A stretch of DNA of 11,400 bases from Marinagarivorans sp. UBA5868. Its GTDB lineage: Bacteria > Pseudomonadota > Gammaproteobacteria > Pseudomonadales > Cellvibrionaceae. Position numbers and translations under genes: made by a program. The number at the start of each line of letters is the position of its first letter. Position 1 is the first letter of the stretch. Shown in pieces: positions 738-9,975 of the stretch. The stretch covers positions 2,500 to 13,899 of the forward strand of contig DJFQ01000257.1 in assembly GCA_002432095.1 (NCBI GenBank), in the 5' to 3' direction. The notes under the pieces were generated by a model. That model saw only the letters and a program-made list of their open reading frames with translations. It ran no database searches and was not told where the DNA came from.

Positions 738-2960
738 TCAATTTGCGCTCACATGGAAATAATCGAAGTCCGCGTATCCGCCGGTGGACTGACGGGCGAA
801 ATTAAACAGCGCAAAGCGATAGCCCATAAAATGGGTGAGTTCGTAAGCCATTTGCACCGTGTTACCAATCGGCGTCCAGCTATTGCCATCCAAGCTATAG
901 GCGAAGGTGGCGTCGTCAGCTTGGTTGCGGAAATTACCGTAAGCTCGCAAATAAACGGTATTTTGATCCAGTGGCACACGCGCAACTTCCGTGTGATTTT
1001 TACCGTTGTTGTTCACCATGACCACATAATTACGGCCGCTGGAGCGACTGACCGCAACATAGCCATACTGGTCCTGGAATGCCGCAATTCCTGCTGTATC
1101 ACCGTCCTTCAGACCAGTCACGTCCAATTTAACAACGCCGGCGCTGGTGGGTCCGAACATGCGCTGGGTAAGTGTATTTTTGGTCGCATGGATATTGTTA
1201 TCGGTACGGTTATTTTTAAGACGCAGATAACCGGGGCGATCTGTCAACGACCAACCATTGCTTTCAGGATTGTGATTCCACTGCCAGACAATATCCAATG
1301 ACGCGGTGTTAAATTCATCCGAGCGGATAAGGCCGCTAACGCCGCGATCTTCCACGTCGAAATTCATCGTTGAAGGAACACTTCCCGCCACCGGCCAATC
1401 ATTTTGCCAGGTCACCGGCACCAGATATGGAATTCGACCTACGGCACCGCTGTCGCGGAACGCGTATAGAAACCAATTGCCGGCCGGGGTGCTGACGTAG
1501 GAACCTTGCGCAACCCCCGCACCGTTAACATTTTCACGCAGAACTACGCGCCCCTCATACGGCCCGGTAATATTGCGCGAGCGGTGTACAACCTGAGTGC
1601 GCGGACCACCACTTGGCCAACAGATATTGGAAATGTAATACCAGCCGTTAATTTTCTGAATCTGTGTACCTTCCGCCTTCAGAATAAAATTCGTTCCCGC
1701 CACAGCGGAAGCACTTTGAATAATCGTCTGATTGACGCCGCCGGATTTAATTGCCGTAGCATCGGCGTTCAATTCGATCAACCGAACCTGATCGCTGCCA
1801 TAGGCAATATAATTCCGGCCATCATCATCCAGCAGCAGTGAGCTGTCGTGGTACAGATTAGGCAATACGGATTGCGTCCAGTTGCCACCTTCAATATTGT
1901 TGGTTTTCCAGATATAGGTTCGGTTAGTGGTATAGGAAAATGAAGTCACATAAAAAGTGCCGGCTTTGTAATTGATACTGCTTGCCCATGTGCCTTTGCT
2001 GTAAGCGTTACCGCTGTTGAGATTCAGCGCGTTATTGTTGGCATCAAGCGCACGGTGGGCGTAATTGATCACCTCCCAATTTTTTAAATCGGTGGATTTC
2101 ATGATCGGCACACCGGGGTTGAGATGCATGGTGGTGCTGCTCATGTAATAGGTGTCGCCAACACGTACGACATTCATATCCGGCACGTCCGCCCAGATAT
2201 TAGGATTGGTTGCCCGCACGATTGGATAGGTCGGCTCCTGCAATTCGCCGGAATCGGAAAATACCGCTATTCCTGAGAGTGTTGCATTATCGGTACTGGC
2301 GGTAAGTTCGATGGTGAGATTGCCATCGGATACTTGAACATCGTTCACTACTCGCTCAAAAGCCGTGTCATGGCCGGCTTGTTGAAATAAATCCAGGTTG
2401 GTAAAAACCGATTTTCCTTCCACCGAAACACTGAATAAACGGCTACCGGCGGTAGTCTGATAAAGCTCATTAAAAAATAATCGCAAGTCATAACTTGCTT
2501 CAGAAACGGGAATTTCGTAAGTGTAAATTCCGTAACGCTCAGTTTGAAAAAGCGCGTCTTGATCCGTACCCGATATAGGGTCGGTGGTGGAGTTAACGTT
2601 GCCTCCACGAGAATACTGGTCGGCATCGAAATCGATTCCGTCAAACGTTAAAGCCGGCCCACCAGCATTGACGGCGACCACTAAACGGTTGGAAATCGCG
2701 ACTCCGCTTGAGGAGCTGGATGACGACGAACTGCTCGATGACGAGCTGCTTGATGAAGAACTGCTTGATGAAGAGCTATTAGATGACGAGCTATTGGATG
2801 AAGAGCTGGAGGAACTGGAGCTGCTCGACGAGGAACTCGATGACGAAGAAGGATCTCCGCTGGAGCCGCTTCCGCCGCAACCAGTCATTAGCAGTGCGGT
2901 ACACGCCAGCGTGGATAAACAAGCCGGCAGTGATTTTATTTTTATTGCTCTTCGTAACAT
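738..2960 (-). CDS. GH43 lipoprotein with malectin-like (CBM57-type) module: beta-xylosidase/arabinofuranosidase family
   Basis: A 740-residue surface enzyme. The lipoprotein signal is MLRRAIKIK followed by LPACLSTLACTALLMTGC, with Cys28 the lipid attachment site and GG after it. The poly-Ser linker spans about 38-85. A malectin-like module spans about 88-240, with VVAVNAGG, the FxAD-type segment, LFQTERYG and VSVEGKSVF. The GH43 five-bladed propeller domain spans about 242-540. Probable catalytic residues are Asp261 in WADVPDM (base), Asp372 in YHDSS (pKa modulator) and Glu430 in KAEGTQ (acid). Residues 545-740 form a C-terminal beta-sandwich typical of GH43 two-domain enzymes. The family removes xylose or arabinose from xylan and xylo-oligosaccharides; the exact specificity cannot be read here. 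The start at 2960 is chosen because it gives a clean signal peptide and is preceded by TTGGGTG, a weak ribosome binding site. A longer frame from TTG at 3053 would run over the terminator at 3026-3052. Confidence 0.93.
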   Translation of the reverse strand: MLRRAIKIKSLPACLSTLACTALLMTGCGGSGSSGDPSSSSSSSSSSSSSSSSSSNSSSSNSSSSSSSSSSSSSSSSSSSSSSSSGVAISNRLVVAVNAGGPALTFDGIDFDADQYSRGGNVNSTTDPISGTDQDALFQTERYGIYTYEIPVSEASYDLRLFFNELYQTTAGSRLFSVSVEGKSVFTNLDLFQQAGHDTAFERVVNDVQVSDGNLTIELTASTDNATLSGIAVFSDSGELQEPTYPIVRATNPNIWADVPDMNVVRVGDTYYMSSTTMHLNPGVPIMKSTDLKNWEVINYAHRALDANNNALNLNSGNAYSKGTWASSINYKAGTFYVTSFSYTTNRTYIWKTNNIEGGNWTQSVLPNLYHDSSLLLDDDGRNYIAYGSDQVRLIELNADATAIKSGGVNQTIIQSASAVAGTNFILKAEGTQIQKINGWYYISNICWPSGGPRTQVVHRSRNITGPYEGRVVLRENVNGAGVAQGSYVSTPAGNWFLYAFRDSGAVGRIPYLVPVTWQNDWPVAGSVPSTMNFDVEDRGVSGLIRSDEFNTASLDIVWQWNHNPESNGWSLTDRPGYLRLKNNRTDNNIHATKNTLTQRMFGPTSAGVVKLDVTGLKDGDTAGIAAFQDQYGYVAVSRSSGRNYVVMVNNNGKNHTEVARVPLDQNTVYLRAYGNFRNQADDATFAYSLDGNSWTPIGNTVQMAYELTHFMGYRFALFNFARQSTGGYADFDYFHVSAN

Positions 2961-3025
2961 ACAGCACCCAATAGATAGAAAAATTAGAGAAATCCTGTGA
3001 AATTTAGTCGCCTGCATACCGTATG

Positions 3026-3052
3026 AAAAAAATGTGGAAATCCTTTTCCACA
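3026..3052 (-). terminator. Intrinsic terminator after the GH10 gene
   Basis: Read on the minus strand, TGTGGAAA-AGGA-TTTCCACA forms a perfect 8-bp stem with a 4-nt loop, followed directly by seven T. It lies about 37 nt past the GH10 stop codon and about 65 nt before the GH43 start. It should end most transcription from the xylanase gene and implies a separate promoter for the GH43 gene in the short stretch 2961-3025. Plus-strand reading gives no T-run, so the direction is clear. Confidence 0.9.
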
Positions 3053-3088
3053 AGCAGTCACAACGGTGATATCGCTAAAGCGAGGCGA

Positions 3089-4957
3089 TTAGGGTTTTGG
3101 GTTGTCGCGTAGATAATTCATCAACCAAGTCATCGCAGGACGCGGTGTACCGTTTTCCTGAATCAGCCCGGAACCGGTGATCCACGTTCTGTTGACTACA
3201 TAACCCCAGATGGTGATGCCCTTGACGTGCGGATGGTTGTAGAACACTGGGAAGTGCTCTTGGAAATTCCTTAGCTGATTCTGGTCGTTGGTGTCACCGA
3301 TGTCATATTCGGAGATGTAGATTGGCACCTGCAGCTGATTCCAAAGATTATCTATCGCAGTCTTAACGGTCGATGCAGGAACGTCCTTCAACTCATGTGC
3401 CTGCAGACCAATCGCATCCACATAACCGCTCGGAATAGCCGATTTGGCGAGCGTAATAAATTCATTGTGCTGCCAGCGGATATTGTTGTAATCGTTCAGG
3501 ATCAGAATGGAGTTGGGGCAGTACTGACGCGCCAGCTGGAACACACGCACGATCCAGTTATTGCCGAAGGCGCGTTGCGCATAACCTGCTGGCTGATGTC
3601 CTGGCACTGCTTCGTTCACCACATCAATCATGGCGGTATCTGGATAACGCGTGCAGTAATCGCGAATCCACTCTTCGATTTCTGCTGCGGTTTCGGTCGC
3701 GTTCAAATTATTCAGCCAAGTTGGTGATTGTGCTCCCCATACAAACGTGTGCGCCTTCACCGGAATATTATGCTGACGTGCGTAAGCGTAAATACGGTCT
3801 ACTGGTGCCCAGTTGTACTGGTCACGAGTACCTTCGACGGAGCCCCATTTACCTTCGTTTTCTGGAGTGATTTGGTTCCAGTACTGAGTAAAATCCGAGC
3901 GCACATTGCCGGACGTGGTGATGTTGCCGACAAAGAACTTGTGGTTTTTACCTGTTACTGGCGGCTCCTCGAATTTGCCACCGGCATTCGAATAAATGGC
4001 GAACGCGCTGATGGTGCCATTATCGATACTGGCGCTAAGTTCGATGGTGAGCTTCTTATCCGCCACCATGACAGTGGGCACGATGACGTCGTATGCGCGG
4101 TCATGGCCAACTTCCCCATAGAGATCCATATCAGTGAAAATCGGCTGTCCTTCCACTGTTACGCTGAATAGGCGGTTGCCTTCCATTTCCTGATACAGCT
4201 CGACAAAACGCAGATGAACGCTGTAAGTGGAATTGGTCACCGGAATTTCGTATTTGAAATTGCCATAGCGCTCGCTTTGATAAAGTGCATCCGCCGTGGT
4301 GCCGTCGATTGGATCCGTGGTGGAGTTAGCTGCGCCACCGGTAGAAAAACGATCCGCTTTATATTCCACACCGCTAACGGTAACCGCCGCGCCGCCCGCA
4401 TTAACGGCGTAAACCAAACTGGAACCGGCGGGGATGGAACCTGAACTCGAAGAGCTGGATGAGCTGGAAGATGATGAAGAAGAAGACGAACTACTAGATG
4501 ATGAAGAGGATGAACCGCCGCTGCGCAGACTCCAGATATAGGCTGCAGTATCGGTGGCGCACTGGCCCACGCAACTAGTTGGGTTGGTGCTGGGCATATT
4601 TGCGGAAATATAGGTCGCGAGCGTCGCTTGGGAATTAGCGTTTTTTAAGCTGTTTGCATTAAACGGCACTAGCCCGCCAATGGCCGCCGTGCCGCTGTCG
4701 GTGTGACAAGTGGAGCAGAGACTGCCGCGGAACTGTGTTCGCCCATTTGCGACATTGCCGCTGGATCCGCCGCTGGTGGAGCTGGATGAACTGCTTGAAG
4801 AGGAGCTGCTCGTTGATGAGCTACTGCTCGAAGAGCTGGATGAGCTGCTGCCCGTCGGCGTACCCGACGAGCTGGTGCCACCACCGCAGCCTACCAGGAG
4901 AACGCAGCCTGCGAGCATGCCTCCCGTTATACTGAGTAATTTGCTGATATTGAACAT
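3089..4957 (-). CDS. GH10 endo-beta-1,4-xylanase lipoprotein fused to cytochrome c and malectin-like modules
   Basis: A 622-residue protein with five parts. (1) A lipoprotein signal ending LLVGC, with Cys24 acylated and GG next. (2) A poly-Ser linker at about 40-68. (3) A class I cytochrome c domain at about 70-147: heme motif CSTCH at 81-85, probable axial Met121 in ANMPS, an extra cysteine pair at 129 and 133, and a closing AAYIWSLR helix. (4) A second poly-Ser linker, then a malectin-like module at about 180-330 (VNAGG, ALYQSERYG, VTVEGQPIF). (5) A GH10 TIM barrel at about 336-620, with acid/base Glu449 in VVNEAV and nucleophile Glu550 in ISEYDIG. Both catalytic residues are present, so xylanase activity is expected at the outer-membrane surface. 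The start at 4957 has TTGAGG about 10 nt upstream. The gene lies 196 nt after the esterase gene and ends just before a strong terminator. The role of the heme domain is unknown; electron transfer to a surface redox enzyme is only an inference. Confidence 0.95.
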   Translation of the reverse strand: MFNISKLLSITGGMLAGCVLLVGCGGGTSSSGTPTGSSSSSSSSSSSSTSSSSSSSSSSSTSGGSSGNVANGRTQFRGSLCSTCHTDSGTAAIGGLVPFNANSLKNANSQATLATYISANMPSTNPTSCVGQCATDTAAYIWSLRSGGSSSSSSSSSSSSSSSSSSSSSSSSGSIPAGSSLVYAVNAGGAAVTVSGVEYKADRFSTGGAANSTTDPIDGTTADALYQSERYGNFKYEIPVTNSTYSVHLRFVELYQEMEGNRLFSVTVEGQPIFTDMDLYGEVGHDRAYDVIVPTVMVADKKLTIELSASIDNGTISAFAIYSNAGGKFEEPPVTGKNHKFFVGNITTSGNVRSDFTQYWNQITPENEGKWGSVEGTRDQYNWAPVDRIYAYARQHNIPVKAHTFVWGAQSPTWLNNLNATETAAEIEEWIRDYCTRYPDTAMIDVVNEAVPGHQPAGYAQRAFGNNWIVRVFQLARQYCPNSILILNDYNNIRWQHNEFITLAKSAIPSGYVDAIGLQAHELKDVPASTVKTAIDNLWNQLQVPIYISEYDIGDTNDQNQLRNFQEHFPVFYNHPHVKGITIWGYVVNRTWITGSGLIQENGTPRPAMTWLMNYLRDNPKP

Positions 4958-5085
4958 TTTGTTGCAACCTCAAGTTGTTGGTTTTCGACTTATTATCAGT
5001 GCCATCAGGTTTCCCGCCGGATGACCTTTTCTCGCCGGCACTGCGCGGTGCGCAATGCCAACGGATTCTTGCCAATGAGGCTATA

Positions 5086-5153: not shown

Positions 5154-6926
5154 TCATATTATTTTTCTGCCTTGCGATACATCTGATCGAATGGCATTTC
5201 GTTCGTGTAACGGTGAGATTGAAAATGACGCATCGTGTGGCATATACGCTGCCGGATAGTCTGCACGCGCTGGATTTCTGTATTGCAGCGTGTGCCGCAC
5301 CCACAACAGAAAAACAACAATCAAAAACAAATCAAAAATCGGCGCTGCCCCGCCGGACGTGGTGCCTTGTGTGCCAGACGAACTTGAACTGCTGGATGAA
5401 CTCGACGAATTTGATGAGCTGGACGAGCTGGAACTAGTCGAACTTGAAGAGCTGGACGAACTTGAAGAGCTAGTCGAACTGGATGAGCTGGAAGATGAAG
5501 AGGAAATGGAGCCCGCGGTGCGCACAAGAATACTGGCAAGCGTGCCATTGTCCATCTGCGTGGCAACTTCAATATCCAAATACCCATCATTAACCGAGGC
5601 GGTAAAGGGACCGGTAATCAACCCAGTGTCGTGGCCCACCTGCTGGTATATATCCACATTTTCCAAAACCCGCTGACCTTCCAGCGTCACCTGAAATAAC
5701 CGCGCTCCAGGATTGGTGTGGAAAATTTCCGCCATGCCCAATTGCACGGAGTAAAGGCCACTATCGACCGGGATTTTGTATGCGAAATTTCCGTATCGCT
5801 CAGATTGAAAAAGCGTACTGGCTACTAAATCCCCAGGCACTTGTACTGGATCACTAGTCGCGTGAGCCATGCCATCCGTAAAAAAATGGTCCGGTTCGTA
5901 CCAGATACCCGAAAAATTTACCGAGGCGCCGCTGCCGCCCACATTAATAGCCGCCACTACGTCAGCGGGGTTGGCGGGATGCCAGCCTTCGCTGTCTTCA
6001 GTGACGACGCAAATATTGCCATCCGCCTGTTCGCCAAAACCATCACCATCGAGGTCCGCCAGAATGCTGCAGCACACCGGCATGCCCGCATCAATGCCAC
6101 AACCTGCCGGTGCGTTATCCCCCACCTCCAGCATTTTTGCTGCAAAGCGGCGGCCGAGCTCCCGATTGGATTCCGTATCAAAGTGGATGCCATCGCCTTT
6201 ATCTTTTAACCCGGCGGCAGATACCCAGTGGCCGTTCTGCACGACATTGGGGATCTGCTGAATATATTGATTGAGTCCGCAACACAGCAATTCGCCGGCG
6301 ACAAAAGGCACTTCATTTGCCTTAAGGCCCAGGTCGGCGCGCAAGCTCGTCACCAACTTGTTCACTTTCGACGGCCAATCGGACTGGCCGCCGTTACTCT
6401 CCCCCTGGTGGAAAATAATGCCCTTGATCACACCGCGCTGCTGCGCTTTAGTGGCGAGGTCCATAATCCATGCATAACCGCTGGTGCCATTGTTGGGAGC
6501 CCCGGCAACCGGGCCGAAGGGAGGCTGGCAAGCGTTATAGGTCGCGCAATCCTTCATGAAGTATTCGATTTTTGCTCCGGGATAAGCCGCGCCCACCAGA
6601 CCTATGGTCACGCCACCCGGCGCGGCATCGCCCATGCCCCGGCCAAAATAATCACCGGGACCCAAACCGCCAGGGCAGTAGATTAAAGGAGGGGTCGCCG
6701 GTCGCCACTGACCGTAGGGAGTCGCAATACTGCTGCAGGAGATGTCCTGCATGACCTGAACTTTCGGGTGGGAGTTACGATCTTGCGCCTCAATCGTTCC
6801 GGCGCCGGCCATATTGGATTGGCCGATCATTAGGTAGATATGAAAATTCGGGTCGGGGGCAGCGCTCACTCTGGCCGCTGCCCATGTAAGTAGTACTAAG
6901 AAGGTGACGCCAATTCGTTTCAACAT
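5154..6926 (-). CDS. CE6/SASA-type acetylxylan esterase with malectin-like module, Ser linker and GlyGly/hydrophobic tail
   Basis: A 590-residue secreted esterase, expected to remove acetyl groups from xylan so that xylanases can act. The Sec signal is MLKRIGVTFLVLLTWAAARVSA, cleaved near residue 22. The SASA/CE6 domain spans about 26-268: Ser37 in IGQSNMAG is the nucleophile, HQGES at 173-177 is a conserved family block, and the DGIH block supplies Asp245 and His248. A cysteine-rich bridge follows, with a calcium-loop-like DLDGDGFG at 291-298. The malectin-like module spans about 322-470 (INVGG, LFQSERYG, VTLEGQRV). A Ser/Thr/Asn linker spans 473-517. The end is SGGAAP, a hydrophobic stretch IFDLFLIVVFLLWV, then RH and a further roughly 45 polar residues. 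The GG-plus-hydrophobic arrangement resembles a GlyGly-CTERM sorting tail, but the extension is atypical. The start at 6926 is the first ATG giving a clean signal peptide; an in-frame TTG at 6956 would add ten residues. Confidence 0.92.
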   Translation of the reverse strand: MLKRIGVTFLVLLTWAAARVSAAPDPNFHIYLMIGQSNMAGAGTIEAQDRNSHPKVQVMQDISCSSIATPYGQWRPATPPLIYCPGGLGPGDYFGRGMGDAAPGGVTIGLVGAAYPGAKIEYFMKDCATYNACQPPFGPVAGAPNNGTSGYAWIMDLATKAQQRGVIKGIIFHQGESNGGQSDWPSKVNKLVTSLRADLGLKANEVPFVAGELLCCGLNQYIQQIPNVVQNGHWVSAAGLKDKGDGIHFDTESNRELGRRFAAKMLEVGDNAPAGCGIDAGMPVCCSILADLDGDGFGEQADGNICVVTEDSEGWHPANPADVVAAINVGGSGASVNFSGIWYEPDHFFTDGMAHATSDPVQVPGDLVASTLFQSERYGNFAYKIPVDSGLYSVQLGMAEIFHTNPGARLFQVTLEGQRVLENVDIYQQVGHDTGLITGPFTASVNDGYLDIEVATQMDNGTLASILVRTAGSISSSSSSSSSSTSSSSSSSSSSSTSSSSSSSSNSSSSSSSSSSSGTQGTTSGGAAPIFDLFLIVVFLLWVRHTLQYRNPARADYPAAYMPHDASFSISPLHERNAIRSDVSQGRKII

Positions 6927-6938
6927 CACATTAGTCCC

Positions 6939-6954
6939 GGTCACCCGTGTGACC
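6939..6954 (-). promoter_or_regulatory. Hairpin in the esterase leader
   Basis: GGTCAC-4 nt-GTGACC is a perfect 6-bp inverted repeat, 12 nt before the esterase ATG. It sits directly upstream of the weak GGGA ribosome binding site. In mRNA it could fold next to the translation start; as DNA it could be a protein-binding dyad. It directly abuts the 18-bp repeat array. The function is inferred from position only. Confidence 0.4.
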
Positions 6955-7029
6955 AAGGTTTGCCAACGAAACTAGTTTATTTGCGAAACAAGGTTTACCG
7001 ACGAAACAAGGTTTACCGACGAAACAAGG
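6954..7029. repeat. Tandem 18-bp direct repeats upstream of the esterase gene
   Basis: The unit CAAGGTTTACCGACGAAA occurs as two exact copies (6989-7006, 7007-7024), one copy with two mismatches (6954-6971), one 17-bp degenerate copy (6972-6988) and a trailing CAAGG (7025-7029). The array starts 28 bp upstream of the esterase ATG, where a promoter would be expected. Direct repeats of 17-21 bp are a common operator layout for AraC-family regulators, and such a regulator is encoded divergently nearby. The repeats are contiguous without spacers, so this is not a CRISPR. Confidence 0.8.
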
Positions 7030-7104: not shown

Positions 7105-7143
7105 CATGATCCTCTACCTATCGCCGCATACTGCTTAGGCCGG

Positions 7144-7177
7144 AAAAAAGTGCGTGAGCTAACCAGCTAACTCACGC
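7144..7177 (-). terminator. Minus-strand intrinsic terminator without an obvious gene
   Basis: Read on the minus strand, GCGTGAG and CTCACGC form a perfect 7-bp stem around a 12-nt loop containing TTAGCTGGTTAG, followed by AC and six T. No recognisable minus-strand gene lies between here and the AraC start at 7658. It therefore ends either an unannotated small RNA or an upstream-initiated esterase leader (about 220 nt before the esterase ATG), where it could act as an attenuator. It would also protect the esterase from antisense transcription entering from the right. Confidence 0.75.
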
Positions 7178-7311
7178 CAAGTGCCGGGCGGGAACTCGTC
7201 TGCTACAGTCGCCAATATCTGGCGCTTCGTCAGGAGTTCACGTTATCGAAACTGGCAACAAGGGAGGTAAAAAGAGCGCTTTATATTTATGTACTGACGA
7301 AAAAATTGAAG

Positions 7312-8931: not shown

Positions 8932-9975
8932 ATGACAATTCTAAAAAAAATGATGGCGGGTTCTTTAGCGTTTCTGTGCGCTTGGGCCGGGCTGTCGTCT
9001 CCAGCTTTTGCCAAACCTTATAAAGCCGCAGAGATCTTTACCTTCGAAGAAGATATGTACGGCAAGTACGTTATCCGCATGCGCGCCGCCAAAGGCAGCG
9101 GCATCATCTCGAACTTCTTTCTGTGGAAAGACGGCTCGGAACTCTCTGAGGTTTTCTGGGAGGAAGTGGATGTCGAAGTATTTGGTAAAAACAATGCCAC
9201 CTCATGGCAGAGCAATATCATTACCGGCCTCGGCACTACCTCCAAGTCGGAACAGGTTCACTCACAAGGCGCCTCCTTCGGCGACGCCTACAACACCTTT
9301 ACCCTGGAATGGAAACCGAACGAAGTTCGCTGGCTGGTGAACGACCAGGTCGTCCGTACCACTACCGGTGGTCAGGCCCGTGAGCTGATGAACCCGGCGC
9401 AGCTGCGTCTCAATTTCTGGCCGCCTGCCGTACCCGAGTGGGTCGGCCCCTGGAACGACGGCATCCTACCGGTCCATATGTTCGTGAACTGGGTGGAATA
9501 CCATCGCTGGAACGGCAATGGCTTTGAGCTGGCCTGGCGCGACGATTTCAACAATTTCGACAGCAACCGCTGGGGCAAAGCCGACTGGACCTTCGCTGAG
9601 AATCAGGCGGACTTCCATTTCGACAACGTGGTTGTGCGCAACGGCTATTTGGTACTGGCAATGACCCGTGAAGGCCAAGAGGGCTACAATGGCAATCCAC
9701 CCACCGATAACGGCGGCGGTAGCAGCTCCTCCAGCAGCTCAAGCTCAAGCAGCTCATCCAGCAGCAGCTCGTCGAGTTCGAGCAGTTCATCAAGCTCCAG
9801 CAGCTCATCGAGCAGTAGCAGCAGTTCATCCAGTAGCAGCTCCAGCTCTTCGTCCAGCAGCAGCTCGTCCTCCGGCAACACCAGTTCTGGTGGCAATACG
9901 GGTGGCGGCGCGATGAACCCGTTGGCCCTGTTGTCCATGCTGATGTTGTTGGTGCTGGGCCGCCGCCGCGGCTGA
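8932..9975 (+). CDS. Circularly permuted GH16 beta-1,3-1,4-glucanase (lichenase type) with poly-Ser linker and GlyGly-CTERM tail
   Basis: A 347-residue secreted enzyme expected to cut mixed-linkage beta-glucan. The signal peptide is MTILKKMMAGSLAFLCAWAG LSSPAFA in two parts, cleaved after Ala27. The mature protein begins directly with the strand that normally lies inside GH16 (EEDMYGKYVIRMRAAKGSGI). The catalytic motif WEEVDVEVFGKN follows, with Glu78 nucleophile, Asp80 and Glu82 acid/base. The segment that opens ordinary GH16 lichenases (WRDDFNNFDSNRWGKADWTF) comes last, at about 198-256. The same permuted order is known in the Fibrobacter succinogenes 1,3-1,4-beta-glucanase. Residues 264-314 are 51 uninterrupted Ser encoded by mixed codons. 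The C-terminus GGNTGGGAMNP, a hydrophobic helix and GRRRG fit a GlyGly-CTERM sorting signal. The start at 8932 has GAGG 7 nt upstream and gives the signal peptide; an upstream TTG at 8812 overlaps the AraC gene and is rejected. Confidence 0.94.
   Translation: MTILKKMMAGSLAFLCAWAGLSSPAFAKPYKAAEIFTFEEDMYGKYVIRMRAAKGSGIISNFFLWKDGSELSEVFWEEVDVEVFGKNNATSWQSNIITGLGTTSKSEQVHSQGASFGDAYNTFTLEWKPNEVRWLVNDQVVRTTTGGQARELMNPAQLRLNFWPPAVPEWVGPWNDGILPVHMFVNWVEYHRWNGNGFELAWRDDFNNFDSNRWGKADWTFAENQADFHFDNVVVRNGYLVLAMTREGQEGYNGNPPTDNGGGSSSSSSSSSSSSSSSSSSSSSSSSSSSSSSSSSSSSSSSSSSSSSSSSSSSGNTSSGGNTGGGAMNPLALLSMLMLLVLGRRRG

Follow-up and report, generated by a model that had tools for sequence, protein, structure and literature searches.

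The closest described counterparts of the heme module analysed here belong to X183, a CAZy-associated cytochrome type. In Cbp2D of Cellvibrio japonicus, the X183 domain (CjX183; structure 7b21) has a single CXXCH motif, His/Met ligation and a C-terminal CxxxC disulfide, and shares its chain with linked carbohydrate modules; the passages of the source that describe this protein list CBM2, X158 (YceI-like), FN3 and X132, and no hydrolase (PMC8981238). Two further X183 domains, TtX183A and TtX183B (8q1v and 8q1w), occur together with X122 and X132 in Teredinibacter turnerae TERTU_2913, deposited as a putative lipoprotein. Published passages give potentials of +193 mV for CjX183 and +11 to +124 mV for the TtX183 domains, and describe the heme as exposed. 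A third group, the GH5-X183-X132 proteins, unites an X183-type cytochrome with a glycoside hydrolase in one chain, while the GH10 xylanase 4pmx has the catalytic module of the protein studied here and no heme module. The protein described here joins X183 to malectin and GH10. Its distinctive traits are the GH10 partner and the missing X132, and what is new is the history of its heme module, which was probably inserted, apparently as a recent gain, into a poly-Ser linker of the xylanase.

The analysed stretch of DNA (hereafter the window; 11,400 nucleotides) comes from one metagenome-assembled genome (MAG), 87.6% complete and in 263 contigs. The xylanase lies on its minus strand; a plus-strand reading of the same interval was rejected, the frame being full of stops. 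The features of the gene are as follows:

3089..4957, minus strand: xylanase ORF of 622 aa, in the order lipobox-like signal, poly-Ser, X183 cytochrome c, poly-Ser, malectin, GH10 (ORF list, Pfam)
4886..4957, minus strand: signal peptide with lipobox-like LVGC (Cys24) and Gly at +2 (by eye)
4772..4849, minus strand: poly-Ser/Thr linker 1, residues 37-62
4520..4756, minus strand: X183 mono-heme cytochrome c module, residues ~68-146 (sequence, profile, model)
4703..4717, minus strand: CSTCH heme attachment motif, residues 81-85, with His85 as the proximal ligand (alignment)
4595..4597, minus strand: Met121, predicted axial ligand, homologous to CjX183 Met66
4559..4573, minus strand: Cys129 and Cys133, putative disulfide by homology to CjX183 Cys74-Cys78
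4442..4513, minus strand: poly-Ser linker 2, residues 149-172
4007..4414, minus strand: malectin module PF11721, residues 182-317, E 3.7e-28 (Pfam, above cut-off)
3116..3907, minus strand: GH10 catalytic module PF00331, residues 351-614, E 4.1e-55 (Pfam)

The PF13442 match of the heme module fell below the Pfam cut-off of 27, with 20.9 bits in the whole protein and 25.8 as an excised domain, yet a sequence search with the excised domain retrieved the solved X183 structures (8q1w, E 5.5e-7; 7b21, E 1.4e-5; 8q1v, E 0.0067), and a profile built from 45 relatives ranked the same three at the top (E 1.4e-21 to 1.6e-20; fourth chain 1.5e-14). The predicted structure of the module (mean pLDDT 94.7) matches the fold of solved X183 domains, 8q1w being the best match in fold (~34-35% identity) as well as in sequence. 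His85 and Met121 sit in invariant columns of the X183 alignment. Among 169 X183 domains picked by CXXCH and score, none lacks the Met; one of the two extra Cys is present in 168, the other in all 169. The Met-to-Cys spacing of 8 equals that of CjX183 (66 to 74), whereas the stretch between His and Met comprises 36 residues in the xylanase module and 43 in CjX183. On these sequence and fold matches the heme module is classified as X183, with all six key residues, and it is predicted by homology to bind a single heme through His and Met. Generic cytochromes (cbb3 subunit, c6) were weaker than X183 in both profile and fold; TsdA tied with X183 on Z, yet was weaker by profile. X132, the criterion for Cbp2D-type redox CBM proteins, is absent from the xylanase chain, where neither Pfam (DUF1587/1592/1588) nor an X132 profile found it.

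The PF00331 match of the xylanase reaches 187.6 bits (cut-off 22.1), and E449 and E550 each align to a Glu in 4pmx; from the GH10 family we presume that they are the catalytic residues. At the other end of the protein, LVGC-G was read by eye at residues 21-25. Outer-membrane lipoproteins follow the lipobox rule of a Cys and no Asp at +2, and the xylanase is tentatively read as a probable outer-membrane lipoprotein, presumably anchored at the surface. Such predicted anchoring resembles the deposited annotation of TERTU_2913, and a loose lipobox pattern was present in 71 of the 84 X183 ORFs in which it could be tested. The earlier note, made from the letters of the window, had described a cytochrome domain between two poly-Ser linkers ahead of malectin and GH10; the ORF and the domain matches confirm this order. 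Its complete mono-heme module (with His/Met as ligands by homology) and its intact GH10 domain, PF00331 being over cut-off with both predicted catalytic Glu in place, are borne out as well, and the profile search and structure prediction that it proposed led to X183. The tie that it drew to cytochrome-bearing carbohydrate-binding proteins of Saccharophagus and Cellvibrio also holds, the module being of the X183 type described in the passages on Cbp2D (PMC8981238).

X183 was detected in 77 of 144 Cellvibrionaceae genomes (E 1e-6) and in 17 of 369 genomes drawn across the class, the genome under study among them (E 1e-10). Fusion partners were surveyed in loci made up of 80 hand-chosen stretches, 20 others and those returned by searches. 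This survey listed 131 X183 ORFs, or 130 once L066, a second copy of L107, was removed; one of the 130 (L051) belongs to another family. A home-made X132 profile identified an X132 partner in 101 of them, and seven of the 29 lacking one are cut at the locus end. Pfam was run on 64 of the 130 ORFs, mostly chosen for a missing X132 or long unexplained stretches, and the remaining 66 were covered by the X132 profile and by searches that used a single GH10 and a single GH5 sequence as queries. A glycoside hydrolase exceeded the cut-off in three of the 64: the GH10 of the xylanase itself and a GH5 in each of L108 and L148. Both GH5 domains are cellulases in chains with X132 (L108:4376-8959, with three X183 copies; L148:3327-8399, with four). 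Moreover, GH5, PF13442 and DUF1592 occur together in at least seven proteins among the best 120 of 248 matches to L108, namely P0089 (= L108), P0095 (= L148, from Agaribacterium haliotis), P0090, P0104 (Colwellia sp. E2M01), P0106, P0110 and P0115. Since such GH5-X183 chains were found repeatedly, hydrolase-X183 chains recur and are already in databases. They differ from the xylanase in having GH5, several X183 copies and X132, and their X183 domains group apart from that of the xylanase on a poorly resolved tree, so that the hydrolase fusion probably arose more than once.

Among 37 GH10 ORFs with distinct last 150 residues (nine of them 5'-open; 21 ORFs under a coarser grouping), X183 or CXXCH is found solely in the xylanase of the window. 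The wider survey of enzymes with the same module, as suggested in the earlier note, thus brought up GH5 chains and no second genome carrying a GH10-X183 fusion, with 64 of the 130 ORFs scanned by Pfam. No such fusion is named in the titles and passages searched, and one may stand among the X183 proteins of Branch 2021 Spreadsheet S1. Malectin next to X183 recurs in X132 proteins and in L186. Two other ORFs of the survey have unusual C-terminal parts. L184:1243-3873 is an 877-aa ORF without X132; its C-terminal part, which gave no Pfam match, contains two more CXXCH motifs. In L218:2127-4460, X183 is followed by a C-terminal stretch weakly resembling DUF4832 (E 0.003, under cut-off), which was not counted as a hydrolase; a further enzyme fusion is possible there.

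Orthologs of the malectin-GH10 protein are present in two congeneric genomes, a Cellvibrionaceae MAG (G001; 90% identity over malectin-GH10) and Saccharophagus sp. K07 (G002; 87%). Both have the signal (similar to that of the xylanase in G001), a poly-Ser linker, malectin and the same catalytic module, and both lack CXXCH; the heme module is thus missing from two of the three congeneric genomes. The window aligns to G001 DNA in two blocks, 4773-4984 (upstream region, signal and linker 1; 71%) and 3114-4506 (linker 2 to near the gene end; 83%), which reach adjoining, slightly overlapping G001 positions, that is, an uninterrupted linker. In the search against G002, the downstream side alone aligned (3024-4505). 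The genes surrounding the xylanase likewise match G001. The inserted stretch and a direct repeat in the linkers are located as follows:

4507..4772, minus strand: stretch without G001 counterpart, the insertion (DNA alignment)
4827..4847, minus strand: 21-bp direct repeat, linker 1 copy
4446..4466, minus strand: 21-bp direct repeat, linker 2 copy

Because the module is absent from the orthologs and both flanks match the uninterrupted G001 linker, the comparison points to insertion of X183 into the poly-Ser linker. Remoter malectin-GH10 homologs with an intact 5' end (L099, 60%; L100, 64%; L085, 55%) lack CXXCH as well, which favours a gain here over losses elsewhere. A repeat as long as 21 bp arose in two of 2000 codon shuffles within the linkers. 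Recombination at poly-Ser-coding DNA is the simplest reading of the insertion, with donor and direction not proven. The nearest relative found for the module is the X183 of L184. It is not a paralog within the same genome: it belongs to G093, a genome of another genus, and shares 57% identity with the module. In a tree built on few columns, whose bootstrap had not settled, the two group together with support of 98/92. Four seemingly heme-free relatives (P0001-P0004) were left out as evidence of absence, their predicted starts lying directly after the poly-Ser run; in P0001, which is identical to the xylanase at 287 of 287 positions of the GH10 part and 139 of 151 of malectin, the upstream region may or may not hold the module. 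A search of viral contigs returned no relative, and the titles searched for literature on linker recombination contained nothing relevant.

The xylanase gene is flanked on the same strand by two other malectin proteins:

738..3053, minus strand: malectin-GH43 protein with poly-Ser (Pfam)
5154..6956, minus strand: SASA-type esterase with malectin and poly-Ser (Pfam)

Farther out come a regulator of the AraC type and a GH16 protein on the opposite strand, and the locus looks like a xylan-degradation cluster. At the corresponding site of G001, ~1 kb separates GH10 from the AraC-type gene and no ortholog of the esterase was seen; the esterase gene may be another local gain or loss. A 55-bp intergenic block (7143-7197) is 98% identical to the syntenic G001 site; each of these two genomes has one match, and a search of G002 at E 0.01 gave none. 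Inspected by eye, its minus strand looks like a hairpin and then a T run, as expected of an intrinsic terminator or a leader. Rfam gave no match on the window. At its end (9888-9972), the GH16 protein has poly-Ser followed by a Gly-rich region, then a hydrophobic segment and finally a basic tail, an arrangement that we take to be reminiscent of GlyGly-CTERM sorting signals; NCBIfam yielded no match of the GlyGly-CTERM type. A similar hydrophobic segment follows poly-Ser in the SASA protein (~5270-5340), there with a longer tail.

A hydrolase needs no heme, and the module would have no part in hydrolysis. The reading that we put foremost, with a little less than even confidence, is that of a tethered electron carrier serving the cell's surface X183/X132 proteins. 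The c-type maturation machinery would load the single heme in the periplasm, and the lipidated xylanase would be displayed on the outer membrane, with the heme held on two flexible arms between the anchor and the xylan-binding head. There, it would most likely trade electrons one at a time with the cell's other X183 proteins, as a network carrier placed on xylan. Candidate partners are at hand: the genome has 14 X183 matches in 12 ORFs, the xylanase included, and DUF1592-type domains occur in nine of the ten other X183 ORFs scanned (11 others were found). Three matches to the cytochrome c assembly family PF01578 are also present. Long-lived electron carriage is made less likely by the published observation that TtX183 domains lose electrons to air rapidly, and the carrier reading is weakened by the occurrence of the fusion in one MAG, with two of the three congeneric genomes lacking the module. 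These same absences suit the next-ranked reading, a serious rival to which we give clearly less weight: X183 was copied in recently at a poly-Ser recombination handle and is a neutral passenger that folds and may bind heme without a selected role. The 21-bp repeat in both linkers and the lone X183 among the GH10 ORFs compared are in keeping with it, whereas the retention of all heme and disulfide residues and the joining of X183 to GH5 hydrolases as well speak against it.

The earlier note had linked such cytochromes to the feeding of lytic polysaccharide monooxygenases (LPMOs), and a survey of co-occurrence supports this weakly; the link to extracellular electron transfer that it also raised is conjectural. 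Electrons passed from the heme to AA10 would bring oxidation and hydrolysis together on cellulose coated with xylan, and CjX183 does reduce LPMOs in vitro, slowly, according to passages of PMC8981238. The genome under study has one AA10 match, and among the 144 family genomes both families occur in 63, X183 only in 14, AA10 only in 27 and neither in 40, an association in presence (odds ratio 6.7, Fisher p 3.6e-7; kinship ignored) that is accompanied by a weak correlation of counts, scored up to 39 per genome (rho 0.35, p 2.3e-5; kinship ignored). Where both are present, however, the counts are uncorrelated (rho -0.15, p 0.24). No AA10 or one low-scoring match was found in five of the six genomes richest in X183: G029 (at least 39 X183) and G031 (23) have none, and G012, G093 and G095 (34 to at least 39 X183) have one low-scoring match each, above the Pfam cut-off, while the sixth, G058 (25 X183), has one good match. 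The TtX183 domains failed to drive TtAA10 in the experiments described in passages of PMC10916295, and there and in PMC10154616 the group that solved the X183 structures doubts that LPMO donation is the sole purpose. LPMO feeding as the entire story is weakened by the co-occurrence counts, and we consider it improbable for the xylanase. It is very unlikely that the exposed heme instead passes electrons to O2, as a local source of peroxide at the xylan surface for LPMOs or other oxidative enzymes. The His-Met spacing of the module is nearer to TtX183A/B (33/32), reported in published passages to be air-oxidised rapidly, than to CjX183, but 36 is also the median of the 169 domains, and the published passages report no peroxide from X183 alone. 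An assembly chimera, in which X183 of another gene was joined at poly-Ser repeats, is hardly credible, even though the MAG is fragmented and its poly-Ser DNA repetitive, with at least 66 and at least 57 matches to the two linkers, mostly partial and weak. Two independent misjoins would be needed, since both flanks match one uninterrupted G001 ortholog. In addition, among the best 40 of 62 and best 40 of 80 candidates, no linker match at 100% exceeds 21 bases, the length of the match between the linkers themselves, and one match of 29 bases has 93% identity; the GC content is 0.57 in the module and 0.58 in the signal part.

A wider extension of the carrier reading is speculative and rather doubtful: a hydrolase would be wired into a surface cytochrome network independently of LPMOs, X183 domains would be plug-in carriers exchanged among secreted enzymes through recombination at poly-Ser DNA, and the xylanase and its heme-free sister orthologs would form a natural before/after pair for testing whether hydrolysis and extracellular electron flow are coupled. 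With a heme module, and no X132, as the main difference between the xylanase and its orthologs, their comparison isolates what the module does to a measurable activity and to growth on xylan. Finally, the case suggests a route by which multimodular redox enzymes are assembled.
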